From positions 7,032 through 58,928 of the forward strand of contig JAPLKK010000130.1 of NCBI GenBank assembly GCA_026388115.1: 51,897 bases of DNA. Reading direction: 5' to 3'. Source of the DNA: Elusimicrobiota bacterium. Its GTDB lineage: Bacteria > Elusimicrobiota > Elusimicrobia > UBA1565 > JACRDR01. The notes under the pieces are model-generated. The model did no database searches. It was given only the letters and a program-made list of their open reading frames with translations, and was not told the DNA's origin. The position numbers and the translations under genes were made by a program. Every line of letters begins with the position of its first letter. Positions within the stretch are counted from its first letter, which is position 1. This document shows, one piece after another, positions 2,441 through 14,734 of the stretch.

Positions 2441-4089
2441 TCCTCGAGCGCGTCAAGAAAGAAGCCTCCGCGCTCATCGGGGCGTGGGCGGCGCGCCGCG
2501 GGATGAAAGACCCCCCCGCCGCCTCCTTCGCCCCCGCCCCGGCGCATGTCGCCGCCGACGTGTCGGTGCCCTGGCCCCTGCCGGCCGCGAAGGCCCTCAA
2601 GCGCAAGCCGCTGGAGATCGCCGCCGAGCTGGCCGCGGACCTCGCCCGTGTCCCGGGCGTCGAGAGAGCCGAGCCAGCGCCGCCCGGCTTCGTCAACCTT
2701 CGCCTGTCGATGGCGGCGCTCGCCGAGAACCTCGCCTCCGTCTTGAAAGACCCCGGCCGCTACGGCGCCGGGCTGGCCGAGAAGCCGCGTTCCATCAATC
2801 TCGAGTACGTCTCCGCCAATCCGACCGGGCCGCTCCACGTCGCCTCGGGGCGCGCGGCCACCTTGGGCGACAGCCTCGTGCGCATCCTGCGCCGGCTCGG
2901 CCACAAGGCCTGGGCCGAGTACTACGTCAACGACGCCGGCGGCCGCATGGAGAAGCTCGGCCTATCGCTGAAGGCGCGCTACGAGCAGGCGAAAGGCAAG
3001 GACGCCCCCGTGCCCGAGGACGGCTATCACGGCGAGTACCTCAACGACATCGCCGCGAAGCTTCCCGAGGAGGCCGCGCGCTGGACGCCGGAGCAGTTCG
3101 GCCGCTACGCGATGAGCGTGCTGCTGGAGTCCCAGCAGCTCGACATGGAGCTGTTCGGCGTGCGTTTCGACCGGTGGTTCCTCGAGAGCGAGCTTTACAC
3201 CTCGGGCGCCGTGCAGAAGACCCTCGAATTTCTGCGCGGGCGCGGCATGGCCTACGACAAAGACGGCGCGGTATGGCTCGGCACCCACGCCGTCGAGGGA
3301 TCCGAGGACGACAAGGACCGGGTCCTCGTCAAGAGCACCGGCCAGCCCACCTATTTCCTGCCGGACATCGCCTACCATAAGGACAAGTTCGACCGCGGCT
3401 TCACGGAGCTGATCGACATCTGGGGCGCCGACCATCACGGCTACGTCCCGCGCATGAAGGCGGCGATTGCGGCGCTCGGCAAGGCCCCGGAGTCCTTCCA
3501 GGCGATCATCCATCAGCTGGTGCACCTATTCCGCGGCCAAGAGGCCGTGAAGATGTCCAAGCGCTCGGGCGAGTTCGTGACCCTGCGCGAGGTGGTGGCG
3601 GAGGTGGGGCGCGACGCCTGCCGCTTCTTCTTCGCCCTGCGCACCGCCAACTCCCACATGAACTTCGACTTGGAGCTCGCGAAGAAGCAGAGTTCGGAGA
3701 ACCCGGTCTACTACGTGCAGTACGTGCACGCGCGGATCTGCTCGATCTTCCACGAGGCGGAGAAGCTGATGGGAGAGAAGGCGGCCCAGAGACTCGACGC
3801 GGCTCCCCTGGACCGGCTGGCGACGCCCGAGGAGCGCGCCCTGCTCATCAAGCTGGCGTGGTTCCCGGCGATCCTGCAGACCTGCGAGGCGGAGCTCTCC
3901 CCGCATCCGCTCGCGGGCTACCTGATGGAGCTGGCCGGCCTGTACCACCCCTTCTACGAGAAGTGCCGCGTCGTCGAGCCCAAGGACCCCGAGACGAGCC
4001 GCGCCCGCCTCGCCCTCTGCGGCGGCGTCCGCGCGGTCATCGCCCAAGGCCTGGACCTTCTGGGCGTTTCGGCGCCGGAGAAGATGTAG
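2437..4089 (+). CDS. argS: Arginyl-tRNA synthetase
   Basis: Class I aminoacyl-tRNA synthetase that charges tRNA-Arg; 550 residues is the expected length. The order is an N-terminal Add-1-like tRNA-binding domain (about 1-105), the Rossmann catalytic domain and a C-terminal DALR anticodon-binding domain (about 425-550). The signature NPTGPLH lies at 128-134. The HIGH-equivalent reads HVAS (134-137) instead of the common HVGH, while KMSKRSGE (372-379) is canonical and includes the KMSK lysines. The ATG overlaps the rsfS stop. No second argS is in the window, so this is presumed to be the working copy. Confidence 0.95.
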   Translation: MILERVKKEASALIGAWAARRGMKDPPAASFAPAPAHVAADVSVPWPLPAAKALKRKPLEIAAELAADLARVPGVERAEPAPPGFVNLRLSMAALAENLASVLKDPGRYGAGLAEKPRSINLEYVSANPTGPLHVASGRAATLGDSLVRILRRLGHKAWAEYYVNDAGGRMEKLGLSLKARYEQAKGKDAPVPEDGYHGEYLNDIAAKLPEEAARWTPEQFGRYAMSVLLESQQLDMELFGVRFDRWFLESELYTSGAVQKTLEFLRGRGMAYDKDGAVWLGTHAVEGSEDDKDRVLVKSTGQPTYFLPDIAYHKDKFDRGFTELIDIWGADHHGYVPRMKAAIAALGKAPESFQAIIHQLVHLFRGQEAVKMSKRSGEFVTLREVVAEVGRDACRFFFALRTANSHMNFDLELAKKQSSENPVYYVQYVHARICSIFHEAEKLMGEKAAQRLDAAPLDRLATPEERALLIKLAWFPAILQTCEAELSPHPLAGYLMELAGLYHPFYEKCRVVEPKDPETSRARLALCGGVRAVIAQGLDLLGVSAPEKM

Positions 4090-7494: not shown

Positions 7495-8157
7495 CTACTT
7501 CGGCTTCGGGAAGAGGCCTTCGAGGCCGCCGAGCGAACCCTCGATGCGCAGGCCGTCGACCGTCTCCGCCGGCACGGCGAAGGCGACGGGCGAGGCCGGC
7601 GGCTGGCCCGAAGGGATGCGGGAAAGCTGTCCGGGCTTGAGGGTGATGGTTTTGCCCGCCGCCGCGACTTCGACCTCGTGCTCGATGGCGGCCGCCTGCG
7701 TCTCGCGCGGGTCCGTCTTTCCCCAGCAGAGCGTCCCCCGCAGGACCGCCACCGCCTGCGGCGTGGCCACCCGCAACCTTCGGCCCTTGGGAAGCTCGTG
7801 AAAGACGCCCAGCAGCCATTCGCCCATCTTGAACTGCATCAGGGCGTCGTCCGCCTCCCCGCCCAACACGACGTCCGAGCGGCCGCCGACCACCAGCACG
7901 GCCCCATCGCCAAGCTCGACTTGGGCGATCCCGCCGGGACCCGTCTTCAACTCGTCGCCGGGGATCAGGCTCGCGCCCGTGTCGGCGGGCGTGAACCCCT
8001 GGTGCCCCAGCGCGCGGATCGACACGGGGCCCGCGACCTTCAGCACCCGCGCGTATTCCCCCTCTTCCAGAGGCTTCGGCCCCGCGGGCGGAGCTTTCGC
8101 GTGCTTCGCCGCGAAACCCGCCGCCGGGAGCAGCAGGCACAGCGCAATCGCTTTCAT
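7495..8157 (-). CDS. Exported FecR-domain protein
   Basis: A 220-residue protein with an N-terminal signal peptide (MKAIALCLLLPAAGFAA) and then a FecR-type beta-rich domain: VSIRALGHQGF, a GDELKTGPGGIAQVELGDGAVLVV core, GEWLLGVFHELPKGRRLRV and TPQAVAVLRGT. In the family this domain occurs both in sigma-regulator proteins and in stand-alone periplasmic proteins; with no anti-sigma region or membrane anchor visible, the second is likelier. An open frame extends to 8211, but the ATG at 8155-8157 gives the signal peptide and overlaps the addA stop (ATGA). It ends with a Pro/Lys tail. Why it is coupled to addAB is not clear. Confidence 0.8.
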   Translation of the reverse strand: MKAIALCLLLPAAGFAAKHAKAPPAGPKPLEEGEYARVLKVAGPVSIRALGHQGFTPADTGASLIPGDELKTGPGGIAQVELGDGAVLVVGGRSDVVLGGEADDALMQFKMGEWLLGVFHELPKGRRLRVATPQAVAVLRGTLCWGKTDPRETQAAAIEHEVEVAAAGKTITLKPGQLSRIPSGQPPASPVAFAVPAETVDGLRIEGSLGGLEGLFPKPK

Positions 8158-11100
8158 CAGCCGCATTCTACGATTTCCGCGGCGCGCAAAAAGAGAAGTT
8201 TGAAGCCGCACGGCTCGCCCAGGGCCCTCCGGACCGCCTCGCGATACACCGAGCCCTGCTCGCGGTAGGCCGCCGATGCGACCCTCGCTTCGCCCGCCCC
8301 GACGCGATCGGTCTTATAGTCCACGACCCACAGCCTTCCCGCCACCCGGCACAAGAGGTCGATCGAGCCCCGCACGACCTGGCCCTCCCTCGCGTAGGCG
8401 AAAGGGAGCTCCCGCCCGAGGATCTCGGCCGCCGCCAGCTCCCGGGCCGCCCCGGAGCGCAAAAAGCCCCCGAGGATGTCGCGCGCCTCGCGCTCGATCG
8501 CGCGCCAATGAGGCGAAGGGCGTTCGCGCTCGAGCCTCCGGCACGCTTCTTTGACGGCGCGCTCCAGGTCGGGCGGCGCGGAGAGATCGAGATGCTCGAG
8601 CACCCGGTGGCAAGCCGTTCCCACCAGCGCCGCCGACGACGGTCCGGCCGTGGACGGCTCCTCTCTCCATTGCGCGTCGGGCACGGCCGAAGGCGCGGCC
8701 GTGGCGCTGGTCGTCCGCGCCTGGCGCGCGAGGGCGGCGGCCTGGCGCCGCTCGGTCCAGCGCCGCGCGAACTCCTCTCCGGCGCCGGACAGCAGATCCT
8801 GCGCCGGCGCTCGCCTCGACCTCGGCGCCCGCCGGGCCTCGCCCTCCTCGCGGCTCACCGGCACGCGCCAGCCGCCGAGCGTCAGGGCGGAGGCCTCCGC
8901 CTCGGGCCCGGGCCACGCGCCGGCGCCGGACAGCAGGTCGCCGAAGCTGCCCGCCGACGGCTTGCGGCCCCCCAAGAGGATCAAGTGGTCCTTCGCGCGC
9001 GTCATCGCCACGTAGAGCAGGCGCACCGCCTCGTACCCCTCGCGCGCGGCTTCCTCGCGCTTGAGCAGCGCCATCGCGGCGTCCGCCGCCCGCGCCTTGT
9101 TCAGGCACAGCCCCACGGACCCGGAGGACCAATCCACGCGCCACGACGGCCCGTCGCCGCCGGAAGGCCGCGCTCCGACGTTCGGGACCAGCACCACCGG
9201 CCATTCCAGGCCCTTGGCCTTGTGGATGGTCAGCACGCGGACCGCGTCCAGATGCTCGTCGGCCAGCGGGCTCTCCCCTTCCTGCGCCGATTCGCGCACC
9301 GAGCGCTCGACCGCGCCGATGAACTCCTTGAGCGTCGAGCCCCGGGACTCGCCCGCCTCGGCCGCCAACCGCGCGAACTTCAGCAGGTTCGACGCCGTCT
9401 GCTCGCCGTAATAGGCCGCCGATGCCAGCTCGATGAGGAAGGTCTCGCGGAAGACCCGCGCCATGAAATCCCCCAAGGGCTCGCGTCCGGCTTTCAGCCC
9501 CAGCCCTCGCAGGCATCGCCACAGGCCCTCCAGCCGCGCGCGGGTCTTGGGCGCGAGCGCGGCCGGCGGAGCCTCGCGGTAATCGAGACGGCGGGCCAGC
9601 GCCAGCTCGTAGAGCTCGCGATCGTCGAGCGCGCACACGGGCGAGCGAAGAAGCCCGGCCAAGGAGACGCGGTCTTCCGGGTCGTCGAGGACGCGCAGGA
9701 GGTTCAGCAGGTCCAGCACCTCCTGCGTGCCGTAGAAGTACCGGTCGGCTTCCACCGCGTACGGCAGCCCCGCGTCCTTGAGCGCGTCGAGATAGGGCTC
9801 GAGCGCCGTGGTGGTCCGCAATAGGATCGCGATGTCGCGGAAGGCTAGCGGGGCGGAAGCCCCGCTGTGCCGGCCATCTTCGGGGCTACGGGGAGGCCGG
9901 CCGAGCGGGCGGCCGGGACCCGCGCGCTCGGCGATCCACCGGGCGATCCAAGCGGCTTCGGCCGAGCGCGTCTCGTCGGCGGAGGCGTCGGCCAAGCCCG
10001 CGACCACCAGCTCGACGCCCGGACCCGCCGCATGCTCGGGCGCGGCGCGGAACGGGTCGATGGGCAGATAGGCCGGTTGAAGGCGCGCGACCGGCCGCAT
10101 CAGGGCTCGATGGACCTCGTTGACGGGGCCGATCACGCCGGCGTGGCTGCGGAAGCTCGTGCGCAGGTCGCATTTGAGCGCGCCCTGCGAGAGCAAGAGC
10201 TCGGCGAAGCGCTCGTACGCCCCGATGTCCGCCCCGCGGAAGCGGTAGATGGACTGCTTGGGGTCTCCCACGACGAACAGCTTGCCCGGCTCGAGCTCGA
10301 GCTCCTCCCAAGACCCGGCCCGGCGGCCGCGCTTTTCGGCGAGATAAAGGAGCAGCTCGCCTTGCAGGGGGTCGGTGTCTTGGAACTCGTCGATGAACAG
10401 GGCCGAGAAGCGCGCCTTGAGCTCCTCGCGCGCCGCGGGGACGTCGCGCACCAGGTCGCGCGCGCGGCGCAGCAATCCGAAATAAGACACGAAGCCGCGG
10501 CGCCGATGGCGCTCGCAGAAGCGTTCGGTGAACGGCGCGACCAGCGCGACCGCGCGGCGCACGAGCCTCTCGGCGTCGCCCGAGGTCGCCTTCGCCAGGG
10601 CGGTCGCTTCCTTGTAGAGCGCCTCGTCGGGGTCGCCCTCCCAGGCTTTCGGCCAGGCGCTCACGGGAACCGGCTCGAGGTCCGGCTTGGCGGCGAGCGC
10701 GCCGCGGCCGGCGCAAGCCTCGGCCAGGTCCTCGAGCCTTGCCGCCGCCTTCGCCGCCCGTTCGACGATCCTGCTCGCCTTGGGGGCCGAGGGCTTGGAC
10801 GCCACCCGTCTCAAGCCGCGGGCCAAGGCCTGCAGGCGCTCGCGCATGGCGGGCGTCGCTCCCGGGGCGCACTGGCGCGTCTCCTCCAAGCACAACGAGC
10901 GCGCCAGGGCCTCGAGGTCCTCCAGCCCCGCCGACGGCAGCATCTCGAGCCACGCCTCGCGCCTCGGCGCGCGCTCGCCGAGCTCGGCGTCGAGCCACAG
11001 GGCCCATTCCGATTCGAACAGCTCGCCGAAGGCCGCGCCGTCGTCCACCTCGAAGCCGGGGTCCACGCCGGCCTCGAGCGGGTACAGCCGCAGCAGGTGC

Positions 11101-11522
11101 GAGGCGAAGTGGTGGATGGTGCCGATGAGCGCGCGGTCCATGCGCTCCAGAGCCGCCCGCGCGGTCACGGCGGCCGCCTCGGGGCTCACGCCGAAGCGCT
11201 CTTGGACCTCCGCGAGGATACGCCGCGCCTCGTCGCGCCGGCGGCCTTCGGGCAGGCCGCCGCCCGTCTCGGCCGCCAAGTCCGACAGGCGCGAGGACAG
11301 CCGCAGCTGGATCTCGCCGGCCGCCTTCTCGGTGAAGGTCAGGGCCACGATGCGCGTGAGATCCACGCCGCGCCCCTCGCCCCCCCCCGCGAGCAGGGTG
11401 AACAGCACGCGGTCGGTCAGCAGCGTGGTCTTGCCGGTGCCCGCGCCCGCCTCGACGACGACGTTCGCCCCCAGCTCGAAGCGCGCCCGGTCCCGCTGCG
11501 CCTGGTCCGCGGTCTTCTTCAC
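8157..11522 (-). CDS. addA: AddA-type ATP-dependent helicase/nuclease subunit
   Basis: Subunit A of the AddAB complex, which resects double-strand breaks for RecA loading (the counterpart of RecBCD). From the GTG at 11520-11522 it has 1121 residues. It is an SF1A UvrD-like helicase: Walker A AGAGTGKTT at 25-33, LTFTEKAAGEI (motif Ia), IDEFQDTDPLQ (motif II), VVGDPKQSIYRFRGAD (motif III), TIHKAKGLEW (motif V) and VAMTRAKDHL (motif VI). It ends in a PD-(D/E)XK nuclease (GSIDLLCR then VVDYKTD). The open frame runs on upstream inside addB, but the GTG overlaps the addB stop (GTGA) and gives the expected N-terminus just before Walker A. A 58-base palindromic repeat sits in frame at 9845-9902. Confidence 0.92.
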   Translation of the reverse strand: MKKTADQAQRDRARFELGANVVVEAGAGTGKTTLLTDRVLFTLLAGGGEGRGVDLTRIVALTFTEKAAGEIQLRLSSRLSDLAAETGGGLPEGRRRDEARRILAEVQERFGVSPEAAAVTARAALERMDRALIGTIHHFASHLLRLYPLEAGVDPGFEVDDGAAFGELFESEWALWLDAELGERAPRREAWLEMLPSAGLEDLEALARSLCLEETRQCAPGATPAMRERLQALARGLRRVASKPSAPKASRIVERAAKAAARLEDLAEACAGRGALAAKPDLEPVPVSAWPKAWEGDPDEALYKEATALAKATSGDAERLVRRAVALVAPFTERFCERHRRRGFVSYFGLLRRARDLVRDVPAAREELKARFSALFIDEFQDTDPLQGELLLYLAEKRGRRAGSWEELELEPGKLFVVGDPKQSIYRFRGADIGAYERFAELLLSQGALKCDLRTSFRSHAGVIGPVNEVHRALMRPVARLQPAYLPIDPFRAAPEHAAGPGVELVVAGLADASADETRSAEAAWIARWIAERAGPGRPLGRPPRSPEDGRHSGASAPLAFRDIAILLRTTTALEPYLDALKDAGLPYAVEADRYFYGTQEVLDLLNLLRVLDDPEDRVSLAGLLRSPVCALDDRELYELALARRLDYREAPPAALAPKTRARLEGLWRCLRGLGLKAGREPLGDFMARVFRETFLIELASAAYYGEQTASNLLKFARLAAEAGESRGSTLKEFIGAVERSVRESAQEGESPLADEHLDAVRVLTIHKAKGLEWPVVLVPNVGARPSGGDGPSWRVDWSSGSVGLCLNKARAADAAMALLKREEAAREGYEAVRLLYVAMTRAKDHLILLGGRKPSAGSFGDLLSGAGAWPGPEAEASALTLGGWRVPVSREEGEARRAPRSRRAPAQDLLSGAGEEFARRWTERRQAAALARQARTTSATAAPSAVPDAQWREEPSTAGPSSAALVGTACHRVLEHLDLSAPPDLERAVKEACRRLERERPSPHWRAIEREARDILGGFLRSGAARELAAAEILGRELPFAYAREGQVVRGSIDLLCRVAGRLWVVDYKTDRVGAGEARVASAAYREQGSVYREAVRRALGEPCGFKLLFLRAAEIVECG
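9845..9902. repeat. 58-base double-hairpin repeat, copy A (inside addA)
   Basis: Matches 13480-13537 at 55 of 58 positions. It has one perfect hairpin (8-bp arms 9847-9854 and 9859-9866, 4-base loop) followed by a second one (7-bp arms 9869-9875 and 9895-9901). It is read in frame and adds a peptide of the form GRPPRSPEDGRHSGASAP just before helicase motif IV. Differences between the copies fall in the first loop and in the segment between the second pair of arms. Confidence 0.85.
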
Positions 11523-14500
11523 GACAGCCGCCTCGCCTTCTCGAAATCCCGCATGAGCTTCGAGCCCGCCGCCCTGCGCCAGGTGGCGGCGTGGGACTTG
11601 CGGCAGACCGGAGCGAAGGAGCACCAGCGGCAGCAGCCGGCGGGTCCCTCCTCTTTGAAGATCAGGAACTCTCCGCGCGCGATGCGCGCGCCGTGGTCTT
11701 TGAGGTTCGCGGCCAGCCCCGCGCGCGCCGCCTCCCACTCCTCGCGCGAGAGGGCCACGATCGCCGGCTCGCCCCCGCCGCCGCGCGTCCCCTCGAGGCA
11801 GTACAGCGCCGCCCCGGCCGCCTGGGCGCCGTCCGGCCCCGAGGCGAGCGCCATCTCCAGGTACAGCGGCGGCTGCAGCGACTCCATGCGTTTGAGGGCG
11901 TCGCCCAGCTTGGCCGGGCCCTTGCCGGACTTGTAATCGACGATCCAGAGAGCGCCGCCCGGCCCCTCGTCGATGCGGTCCGCGCGGCCGCGCAGCCGCA
12001 GGCCCGCCACATCCGCGGAGAGCTCCTCCTCGAAACGCCGGGGGACGAAACCGCTCGCGCGGATGCGCTCGACGTCCTTTTCGGCGAGCGCGCGCAACCG
12101 CTGCGCAAGCCGCCGCCGCGCCGCCTCCCACACGACGGGATAGACGCCCAACGACCGCCAGCCGGCGCTCGCGAGCACCCGGACGATCGCCGCGTCGAAA
12201 GCCGGCTGCCAGGAGCCCGAAGGGCGCGCGAAGAAGCGGTCGTCCGCCAGGGCGCGATGGAAGCGCTCGAGCACCCGGTGGGCCAGCTCGCCCCGCGCGG
12301 TCGCCGGCAGCTCGCCCCGCTCGACCGGCTCCTCGACCTCGCCCAGCCGCAAGAGCCGCGAGGCGAAGAACTGGAAGGGACAGCGGATGAACTGCTCGAG
12401 CGCCGTGGGAGACAGCCCCCGCGCGCTGGCCCGCTTGAGCCACTCGAGCGGAGAGCCGATGAGGCCGTCCATGGCGCCGGGCTCGCCGTAGCGCGACAGT
12501 TCCGGCAAGCGCTCGCGGCAGGAGTCGAGCAGGGCGCCGTCGAGGCCCAGCGGCTCCAGGAGCGCCCGGCTGGGCCGGCCCCCCAGCGCCGCCAGCGCCG
12601 CCGCCTCCTTGGGCGACAACCGCTCGAGCCCCGCGAAGGCGAGCTTCTCGAACGGGCGGCGCGGCGCGCGGACGGCCTCGTCGAGGTCGGTGCCCGCGGC
12701 GCGGCAAAGCTCGCGCAGATAGATCGACGGGACCTGCGCCCGCCCGTCGTCGGAGGAGCGGGGGTACACGCAGGTCAGGCTCTCGGTCGCCGAGCCCGCG
12801 AGCAGGGCGAACAGGAGCCTTTCCTCGCCGTAGCCCTCGAGCTTCGGGAGGATCCAGTAGCCGCCGGGATCCTCCAGCCGGGAGCGCACCGCGTCGGGCA
12901 GCAAGGCGTCCTCGCGCACCTGCCGCGGGAACACCCCCTCCCCCTCCTGCAAGCCGATGAGGAACAGATGCTTGAACGACTCTCCGCGCGCGTCCATCGC
13001 GTCGAGCACGCGGACGCCGAGGTTCGCGGGCGGGCACGGCGCCTCGTCCCGCAGCAGGGACTCCTCGAAAGCGTCCAAGAAGGCTTCGAAGCCCGCGTCG
13101 GGCGCGGCCGGGCCGAACTGCGCAAGCGCGTCGACGGCCGCGAGCGTCTCGCGCCGCCCGTCGCCGCCCTCCCCCGGATCTTGTTCGAAGTTCTCATCGA
13201 GCAGCCGCCGCGCGTGCGCCGCCATCGCGGGCCAGTCTCCGGGGCGGTGCCCGGCGGGCCCGGCGAGGGCGGCGTGAAGCGTTCTAAGCCAATCGAGGAG
13301 CTGCGCGGCGCGGCGCCGGGGCACGACCGGCCCCTCGGGCTCGCTCGTCAGCGGAAAATCGGCCTTCGTCCAGGGCTCGAGCCTCCCTTCCCATTGGAGC
13401 CACCCCGAGTGCAGGCCGAGGCCCTCGATCAGGCGCGTCCAGTCCGCGACCAGCGCCGCGCCGCCGGCCTCGAAGCGGCCTAGCGGGGCGGCAGCCCCGC
13501 TGTGCCGGCCCTCTCCGGGGCTACGGGGAGGCCGGCCCAGCCGGAAATCGGGCGAGCGGATCAGGTCGAGCACGACCCGCGCCGGGAATTCCCGGCGGCG
13601 CAGCGTGAGAAGGTTCAGCGCCCGCTTGACCGCGGGCAGGCGCAAGAGCGCCCCGCTCGAGCCGAGCCAGTAGGGGATGGCGTTGTCCTCGAACACGTCC
13701 GCGACCCAGCCGCGGTACGGCTCGAGCGTGCGCGCCACCACCCCGATATCGGCGAAGGCGGGGGCGTCCTTGCGGCCGCGCAGGGCGAGGATCTCCTTGG
13801 CGACCGTCCAGATCTCGTCGCGCGAACCCGAGGCGCTGAAGACGCGGAAGGCGCCGGCCCTCAGCCGCGTCTCGCCCCGAGCCTGTCGAGGGGCCTTGCC
13901 CTGAGCTCCTCGAACGGGCTCGATCGAAAAGAGCGTCTCCAGGGCGCCGCCGAGCGCCAGGGCCGAGTCGTCCGCCTCCAGGTGGCGGCTCGGCGCGCGG
14001 CCGAGCCGCGTCTCGAGGAAGCGCCGCGCGAACTCGAAGCCGGGCCGGCCCTTCACGTACGGGAAGAAGAGCGAGCAAGGGAAGGCGCCGGTGACCGCCT
14101 CGAAGAAGTCCGCCTGGGCGCCCGTCAGGTCATAAAAGCCGTAGTACATCAGCTCCCGATGCCGCCCGAGGCGCGACGCCCGGCCCGAGGCCGCGGCCTC
14201 GGCCGCCTCGCGCGTCAGCGCCGACGGCGCCGTGACGCCGGCCTCCTCCAGCCGGCGCCGGTAGCGCGAAAGCAGGCCGAGCACGCTCTCCAACCGACGG
14301 CGGCCGGCCTCATCCGCGATGAGCCCCGACAGGTGCTCCGAAAATTGCGCGGGGTCGACGCCGGCGTCCAGCAGGTCGCGCAGGCTCGCGCGATAAGCGG
14401 CGGCCAGACCGCGCGAGGGTCTGGCGCCCGTCGCTTCCAGCAGCCGGTCGAGGATGAGGTCGTGGAAGAGGGCGCTCGGCGCCAGCCTCCCCGAAGGCCC

Positions 14501-14734
14501 GCCGGCCGCCTCGACCGCCTCGAGCGCGAGGCTGAAGAACGTGTGGAAGCGCAGGCCGACGACGGCGCGGCCCGCCTCGACCGAGACAAGGCGCTCCAGC
14601 CGGTCGGCCATGCGCCGGGAGGGGGCGACCACGGCGACGAGGCGGCCCGGCCCGGGCGCGAGCTCGCCCAGGCGGGACAGGAAGGCCCGCTCGAGCGTCG
14701 GGGTGAAAGGTCCGCAGAAGACCTCGAGGCTCAC
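11519..14734 (-). CDS. addB: AddB-type helicase-nuclease subunit with Fe-S staple
   Basis: Partner of AddA; 1071 residues, close to typical AddB. The N-terminal VFCGPFTPTLERAFLSRL and HTFFSLALEAV regions resemble the inactivated helicase half of AddB; I see no clear Walker A there. The C-terminal PD-(D/E)XK nuclease has LRGRADRIDEG and WIVDYKSG. The four cysteines of the AddB 4Fe-4S staple look complete: one in QFIRCPFQFFASRLL before the nuclease and three in CRWCSFAPVC near the C-terminus. The start is GTG at 14732-14734. The stop overlaps addA by 4 bases. A second copy of the palindromic repeat lies in frame at 13480-13537. Confidence 0.9.
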   Translation of the reverse strand: MSLEVFCGPFTPTLERAFLSRLGELAPGPGRLVAVVAPSRRMADRLERLVSVEAGRAVVGLRFHTFFSLALEAVEAAGGPSGRLAPSALFHDLILDRLLEATGARPSRGLAAAYRASLRDLLDAGVDPAQFSEHLSGLIADEAGRRRLESVLGLLSRYRRRLEEAGVTAPSALTREAAEAAASGRASRLGRHRELMYYGFYDLTGAQADFFEAVTGAFPCSLFFPYVKGRPGFEFARRFLETRLGRAPSRHLEADDSALALGGALETLFSIEPVRGAQGKAPRQARGETRLRAGAFRVFSASGSRDEIWTVAKEILALRGRKDAPAFADIGVVARTLEPYRGWVADVFEDNAIPYWLGSSGALLRLPAVKRALNLLTLRRREFPARVVLDLIRSPDFRLGRPPRSPGEGRHSGAAAPLGRFEAGGAALVADWTRLIEGLGLHSGWLQWEGRLEPWTKADFPLTSEPEGPVVPRRRAAQLLDWLRTLHAALAGPAGHRPGDWPAMAAHARRLLDENFEQDPGEGGDGRRETLAAVDALAQFGPAAPDAGFEAFLDAFEESLLRDEAPCPPANLGVRVLDAMDARGESFKHLFLIGLQEGEGVFPRQVREDALLPDAVRSRLEDPGGYWILPKLEGYGEERLLFALLAGSATESLTCVYPRSSDDGRAQVPSIYLRELCRAAGTDLDEAVRAPRRPFEKLAFAGLERLSPKEAAALAALGGRPSRALLEPLGLDGALLDSCRERLPELSRYGEPGAMDGLIGSPLEWLKRASARGLSPTALEQFIRCPFQFFASRLLRLGEVEEPVERGELPATARGELAHRVLERFHRALADDRFFARPSGSWQPAFDAAIVRVLASAGWRSLGVYPVVWEAARRRLAQRLRALAEKDVERIRASGFVPRRFEEELSADVAGLRLRGRADRIDEGPGGALWIVDYKSGKGPAKLGDALKRMESLQPPLYLEMALASGPDGAQAAGAALYCLEGTRGGGGEPAIVALSREEWEAARAGLAANLKDHGARIARGEFLIFKEEGPAGCCRWCSFAPVCRKSHAATWRRAAGSKLMRDFEKARRLS
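13480..13537. repeat. 58-base double-hairpin repeat, copy B (inside addB)
   Basis: Near-identical to 9845-9902 (three mismatches). It keeps both palindromic arm pairs and is read in the same frame, adding the peptide GRPPRSPGEGRHSGAAAPLG between LDLIRSPDF and a helix containing DWTRLIEGLGL. See the repeat at 9845. Confidence 0.85.

Follow-up and report, generated by a model that had tools for sequence, protein, structure and literature searches.

The Rickettsia palindromic elements (RPEs) are short palindromic repeats that lie in frame in unrelated protein genes, to which they add a conserved peptide, and that occur patchily among relatives (Ogata 2000, 2002; reviewed in PMC10969869). The GTAG and CGTC repetitive extragenic palindromes (REPs) are tetranucleotide-tagged hairpins that supply TAG stops for neighbouring genes and also occur within repair genes, among them recBCD and the UvrD/REP helicases (Di Nocera 2013, PMC3733652). 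Together with the REP doublets known as REPINs (PMC3116915), they include copies in frame in genes and tandem clusters. In the TnpA-REP and IS200/IS605 systems, the site of cleavage is specified by a guide tetranucleotide (PMC8266576). Here, two copies of a repeat with similar behaviour are described from the genes addA and addB of an Elusimicrobiota bacterium, located in a window of 51,897 nt (the whole stretch of DNA analysed, contig JAPLKK010000130.1, positions 7,032 to 58,928). The repeat is a 57-nt, two-hairpin interspersed family, separate from the known families. The repeats are best explained, with high probability, as copies of a small non-autonomous mobile element that belongs to a single order of the Elusimicrobiota, inserts at CTRR tetranucleotides and survives where it is least harmful.

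The resemblance to RPEs put forward in the sequence-only reading holds for the behaviour of the element, which is inserted in frame in unrelated protein-coding genes (those of AddA, AddB, FeoB, homoserine kinase and others). It does not extend to membership of the Rickettsia family, since tag, size, layout and phylum differ. RPEs are about 150 bp long (PMC10969869) or, in the case of RPE-4/6, CGTC-tagged (PMC3733652), whereas the Elusimicrobiota element measures 57 nt, has CTRR at both ends and two separate hairpins, and lies mostly at stop codons; neither a CGTC end nor a palindrome of about 100-150 bp was found in it. From the REPs and REPINs it differs in its tag, which is CTRR and not GTAG or CGTC and which is direct, not inverted, at the two ends (CTGG...CTGG). 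One unit consists of two unlike hairpins, so it has neither the GTAG 5' of a single 20-40 nt hairpin typical of a GTAG REP nor the two inverted copies of one REP with inverted tags that make up a REPIN, and no REP-associated tyrosine transposase (RAYT) was found beside it. E. coli has REPs that lie within 15 nt of stop codons (PMC12306157), and like them the element can place a hairpin directly after a stop codon, but here the stop codon itself is part of the boundary tetranucleotide. Elusimicrobia and a CTAG tag are not mentioned in the survey of GTAG/CGTC REPs (PMC3733652), and no description of the family was found in the literature searched, the coverage of which is incomplete.

Structure and distribution of the element

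Two matching stretches of 58 bases had been reported for the window (9845-9902 and 13480-13537), and both were recovered at these places, differing at 3/58 bases. The left half of the repeat had no match in shuffled windows and the right half a mean of 0.01 matches. The repeat unit was refined to 57 nt, starting with CTAG (at 9845 and 13480) and followed by a second, decayed tetranucleotide; across the full element with its tetranucleotides the two copies are 57/61 identical. Folding of each copy bore out the two hairpins proposed for it, and the folding energy of the addA copy was reached by 0/200 shuffles.

The source genome (G000), a metagenome-assembled genome (MAG) of 4.15 Mb in 286 contigs, contained nine copies by BLAST and ten with a covariance model derived from the copies in related genomes, on which the copy counts given here rest. 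These ten are dispersed in and out of genes, as expected of the interspersed element that had been claimed. Five relatives of the same order carried 32, 3, 8, 23 and 50 copies, a few of them weak, and six further close genomes carried none by the same model, although some of them belong to the same genera as G184/G185 and G188. Presence is patchy within genera. Across the phylum, 9/341 genomes were positive, all from one order and three with traces only, and 332/341 were without the element. A scan of 84,980 species genomes for the exact core pattern returned 22 stretches, all in Elusimicrobia MAGs and none in Rickettsia. The exact core occurred in no viral contig, and a viral origin was rejected.

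An alignment of 33 copies yielded two hairpins of 9 and 7 pairs, with 98.1% of the cells paired. Double changes were observed in 33 cells compared to 9.4 in shuffles (0/500 shuffles as high), and the pairing signal collapsed when the partner was slid. No covariance model of Rfam 15 matches the element, which was the ground for rejecting a known RNA family. In copy 1 (9845-9905) as in all other copies, a GGGGYTA in the large internal loop of hairpin 2 is nearly invariant; its pairing with AGCCCC in hairpin 1 could give a putative pseudoknot.

Target tetranucleotide and an empty site

The unit is usually 57 nt long, with a range of 55-59. Among 117 copies the left tetranucleotide was CTAG in 57, CTGG in 40, CTAA in six and CTGA in four, i.e. 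CTRR. Its last two bases pair and covary with the 3' arm of hairpin 1, the combinations of tetranucleotide and arm being CTAG/GCTG (53), CTGG/GCCG (31), CTGA/GTCG (4) and CTAA/GTTG or ATTG (6). The right tetranucleotide, after hairpin 2, is outside any hairpin, yet it repeats the left one: copies without a following copy were tagged CTAG-CTAG in 22 cases, CTGG-CTGG in six, CTAG-CTGG in two and CTGG-CTAG in none (Fisher 5e-5). In head-to-tail arrays neighbours share one tetranucleotide, hence the array period of 57-58.

An empty site was found at the 3' end of moaA. In G184 this site reads GGCGGC-TAG-GCCCTCCGGGTCCG, and in its congener G185, with matching flanks, GGCGGC-TAG-element-GTAG-GTCCTCCGGGTCCG. 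The single CTAG of G184 corresponds to CTAG-element-GTAG in G185, one copy being mutated, for a net difference of 57 nt. This filled/empty pair shows at the DNA level that the element was inserted at CTAG and that the tetranucleotide was left on both sides. The stop codon of moaA is the TAG inside the boundary CTAG, and the C-terminal Gly-Gly that is usual for MoaA is intact in the filled gene of G185. IscA of G184 also ends at its native C-terminus on the TAG of an element. Insertion at a tetranucleotide containing the stop of a gene leaves that tetranucleotide again, and the stop codon is thereby regenerated.

Position of the copies relative to genes

The 98 solitary or first-in-array copies were divided over stop codons of flanking genes (41), the inside of called genes (29, a few of the calls being in short or weak open reading frames) and intergenic sequence (28). 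The commonest home of the element is directly on the stop codon of a gene, not the gene interior. The addB copy was counted as genic, and an antisense open reading frame that would place it at a stop was set aside as spurious. CTAG copies were situated on stops in 31/52 cases, against 45/164 for background CTAG sites (p 5e-5), and the enrichment was also seen against intergenic sites alone (31:11 vs 45:51, p 0.005). Stop-sited copies had their left end at the stop in 21 cases and their right end in six (p 0.006). CTGG, which holds no stop codon, gave no copies at stops, 17 genic and 12 intergenic ones. The length was a multiple of three in 28/29 genic copies, nearly all of 57 nt, compared to 39/69 of the others (p 4e-5). 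The element has spread to unrelated sites and occurs where harm is least: on a CTAG, CTAA or CTGA stop codon, between genes, or as an in-frame insert of a multiple of three without a stop, which adds about 19 Gly/Pro/Arg/Ala-rich residues to a tolerant loop.

Host sites almost never correspond between genomes, with only two possible correspondences among 237 genes near copies, so that the element must be mobile or its copies young. A shared insertion site, old or recurrent, is best represented by the candidate pair of 46% identical genes in G185 and G188 (L200 and L229), each with a copy within 10 bp of one end. At L231 (about 2971-3000) and L232 (about 3119-3148), in two genomes of another genus, the copies are preceded by the same CCTATTTTAAAAATAGGACTTTAGGCC, itself an inverted repeat; the site may be orthologous, or the copies may be part of a larger composite element.

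Insertions in addA, addB and other host genes

Coordinates of the copies and their host genes are collected in Table 1. Both window copies are read in the same frame, as had been proposed, on the minus strand, yielding GRPPRSPEDGRHSGASAPL in AddA and GRPPRSPGEGRHSGAAAPL in AddB. Comparison with 12 AddA and 10 AddB orthologues revealed that all of them are without the insert and keep the flanking sequence. After removal of the 19 residues, AddA of G000 (ERAGPGRPLAFRDIAILL) aligns gap-free with AddA of G181 (ENAGPGRAYEFRHVAILL), the register being restored exactly. In AddA of known structure, the site is a place of variable length preceding a conserved strand. The orthologues therefore show an insertion and not shared ancestry of AddA and AddB, as the sequence-only reading had argued; the refuting finding that it had named, the peptide in AddA or AddB where the repeat itself is missing, was not encountered. 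AddA of G180 (L262) has an unrelated stretch of about 12 residues in the loop where G000 has the element, and this loop seems to be generally tolerant. The DNA of that stretch is not the element, and its interpretation as an old insert was rejected.

For each window copy, identity is higher to a copy at another place in the genome (59/61) than to the other window copy (57/61); judged by sequence, they therefore look like two independent in-frame insertions. Their closeness is unremarkable, as two out of ten copies would fall within 3.7 kb with a chance of about 8% under random placement.

Translation of the element was tolerated in other proteins as well. FeoB of G000 has it in another frame (LAGRQPRCAGPLRGYGKAG); there, between the motifs TVEKKEG and DLPG, alignment with FeoB domains of solved structure leaves a gap of 20 residues. 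A gene for an SSF-family transporter in the same genome reads it in the AddA frame. The homoserine kinase of G185 has an insert that two congeners lack. For DDAH, an alternative host gene, no orthologue was found. The translated element is not tied to one peptide, as other genes read other frames and the other strand. A frame of 2010 codons on G188:C121 holds three tandem copies and one more (L164:2976-3154 and 2079-2139), with repeated RQAERLIAPMxPGTAGLPP units.

Table 1. Positions in the window of the two element copies and their host genes, and loci of the Y1-like protein.
Feature	Position	Strand	Sequence	Remarks
Copy 1, 57-nt palindromic element	9845..9905	+	left CTAG 9845-9848; decayed right tetranucleotide CGAG 9902-9905	inside addA, antisense to addA reading direction; covariance model hit G000:C207:16876-16936
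Copy 1, hairpin 1	9846..9867	+	TAGCGGGGC / GCCCCGCTG	takes in three bases of left CTAG
Copy 1, hairpin 2	9869..9901	+	GCCGGCC / GGCCGGC	conserved internal GGGGCTA
Copy 1, peptide				19-residue insert directly before conserved FRDIAILLRT strand of AddA
Copy 2, same element	13480..13540	+	left CTAG 13480-13483; decayed right tetranucleotide CCAG 13537-13540	inside addB, frame identical to copy 1; covariance model hit G000:C207:20511-20571
Copy 2, hairpin 1	13481..13502	+		basis: alignment
Copy 2, hairpin 2	13504..13536	+		basis: alignment
addA, UvrD-type helicase and PD-(D/E)XK nuclease	8157..11516	-		host of copy 1; compared with AddA chain of PDB 3u44; start codon not fixed, possible start a few codons upstream, near 11525
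addB, PD-(D/E)XK nuclease subunit	11519..14734	-		host of copy 2
Single-copy Y1-like protein				L061 (G000:C170), L056, L057, L058, L062, L066, L075, L076, L078, L084

Proposed mode of movement and alternative explanations

The covariation and the two-hairpin layout resemble the ends of IS200/IS605 and the substrates of TnpA-REP, and from this a single-stranded DNA step with pairing is inferred. The CTRR target would be chosen by base pairing with the 3' arm of hairpin 1, and the element would move via single-stranded DNA with a Y1 (HUH) transposase acting in trans, as in IS200/IS605 and REP/RAYT. By analogy, this combination of pairing-guided target choice and movement in trans is put forward tentatively, at somewhat less than even probability. 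IS200/IS605-derived elements and TnpA-REP substrates (PMC8266576) likewise have two subterminal hairpins, one of which is present at each end here, and a target tetranucleotide complementary to a guide borne by the element; in the present family such a guide is suggested by complementarity only (the covariation with the hairpin-1 arm and the match at the right end). The putative guide differs in being the 3' arm of a hairpin and not a tetranucleotide 5' to it, and no autonomous partner, no tracking Y1 clade and no strand bias were seen. A more specific version, in which the element is self-guided, is doubtful. Here the 3' arm of hairpin 1 would be an exchangeable address for CTAG, CTGG, CTAA or CTGA, subfamilies would be retargeted by compensatory change, and the enzyme would be an unrecognised or a trans-acting transposase. 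All addresses but CTGG consist of a C followed by a stop codon, and with this target set the element would be able to enter gene ends without damaging them.

A Y1 (PF01797) transposase-like protein occurs as one closely related copy in 10/11 genomes of the order, carriers and non-carriers alike, and was not seen in G182. It looks vertically kept rather than mobile and is perhaps domesticated.

The identity of the peptide in both subunits of one enzyme could point to a native or shared domain, derived from common ancestry or kept as a conserved interaction motif. This origin was rejected on the orthologues without the peptide. In addition, the DNA of the element is read in the same frame in the gene of the SSF-family transporter and in different frames in FeoB and further genes, and both window copies have closer relatives elsewhere than in one another, which leaves a native domain next to no probability. 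An assembly artefact or a local duplication within the addAB operon might be suspected in a MAG of 286 contigs; given the unique, different flanks of each copy and the matching copies in independently assembled Elusimicrobia MAGs, it is just as improbable. Another alternative is a functional RNA element of the 3' end. In that case the hairpins would be kept at gene ends for a role in the transcript, as a 3' stabiliser or a ribosome-stalling or termination signal, and the intragenic copies would be by-products. The stop enrichment even against intergenic CTAG sites, the preferred orientation at stops and the covariation conserving both hairpins agree with this, and in E. coli translation is reduced by REPs close to stop codons (PMC12306157). 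A T-run follows just 2/117 copies, so the element is not an intrinsic terminator and that candidate was rejected. About 30% of the copies lie within called genes, on either strand, sites are not common to different genomes, presence is patchy within genera and CTGG-type copies are absent from stops, and a functional 3'-end element is considered unlikely.

A similarly low probability was given to a conventional DDE-type miniature inverted-repeat transposable element, moved by double-strand cut-and-paste with a 4-bp target-site duplication and mobilised by an insertion sequence with a CTRR target. The CTRR direct repeat at both ends is in line with such an element, and the moaA pair fits a 4-bp duplication, but also an IS200-type end. 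The ends of the element are not inverted repeats of each other, as the terminal repeats of this class would be, a length of 57 bp leaves very little room for paired transposase ends, and a plain duplication leaves the pairing and covariation of the left target with the element's own arm unexplained. The mobile element inserting at CTRR is preferred, and several observations weigh against it. Only one firm empty site is available at the DNA level, between species of one genus, and the left tetranucleotide, taken by itself, might covary simply because the stem is conserved. The AddB loop differs from its relatives by a few residues beyond the insert. Gene calls came from a codon model trained here, not from curated annotation, and the copies are related, so that the p-values overstate independence and are optimistic. 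In a tree of the Y1 (PF01797) family with 50 proteins from 11 genomes, no clade tracked the carriers, and around 30 of the 50 Y1 loci (about 1.5 kb on each side, scanned with pattern and covariance model) no copy of the element was found; a REP/RAYT partnership, in which copies flank the RAYT gene, was rejected on these results. Insertion in the lagging strand would predict an orientation bias relative to GC skew. Relative to the residual GC skew of 20-kb stretches, 22 copies had one orientation and 23 the other, without bias; on MAG contigs this is a weak test.

Significance

The element works like RPEs and REPs but is a separate, new family with its own tag, two-hairpin layout and direct tag repeat. 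Recurring peptides of the type GRPPRSPxxGRHSGAxAPL and LAGRSPAVPALxGAxGxAG should be annotated with caution, as they are not domains. The target rule is unusually clear, and the family combines a tag of its own with a filled/empty pair read in the DNA, naturally occurring target variants and a visible survival filter (stop codon, intergenic, multiple of three). It forms a compact natural data set on site choice by a very small mobile element and on the peptide segments added to AddAB, FeoB and other proteins. Rickettsia has been the best-known source of palindromes that are translated in frame, and REPs are familiar from a restricted set of phyla; the present family extends this behaviour to the Elusimicrobiota.

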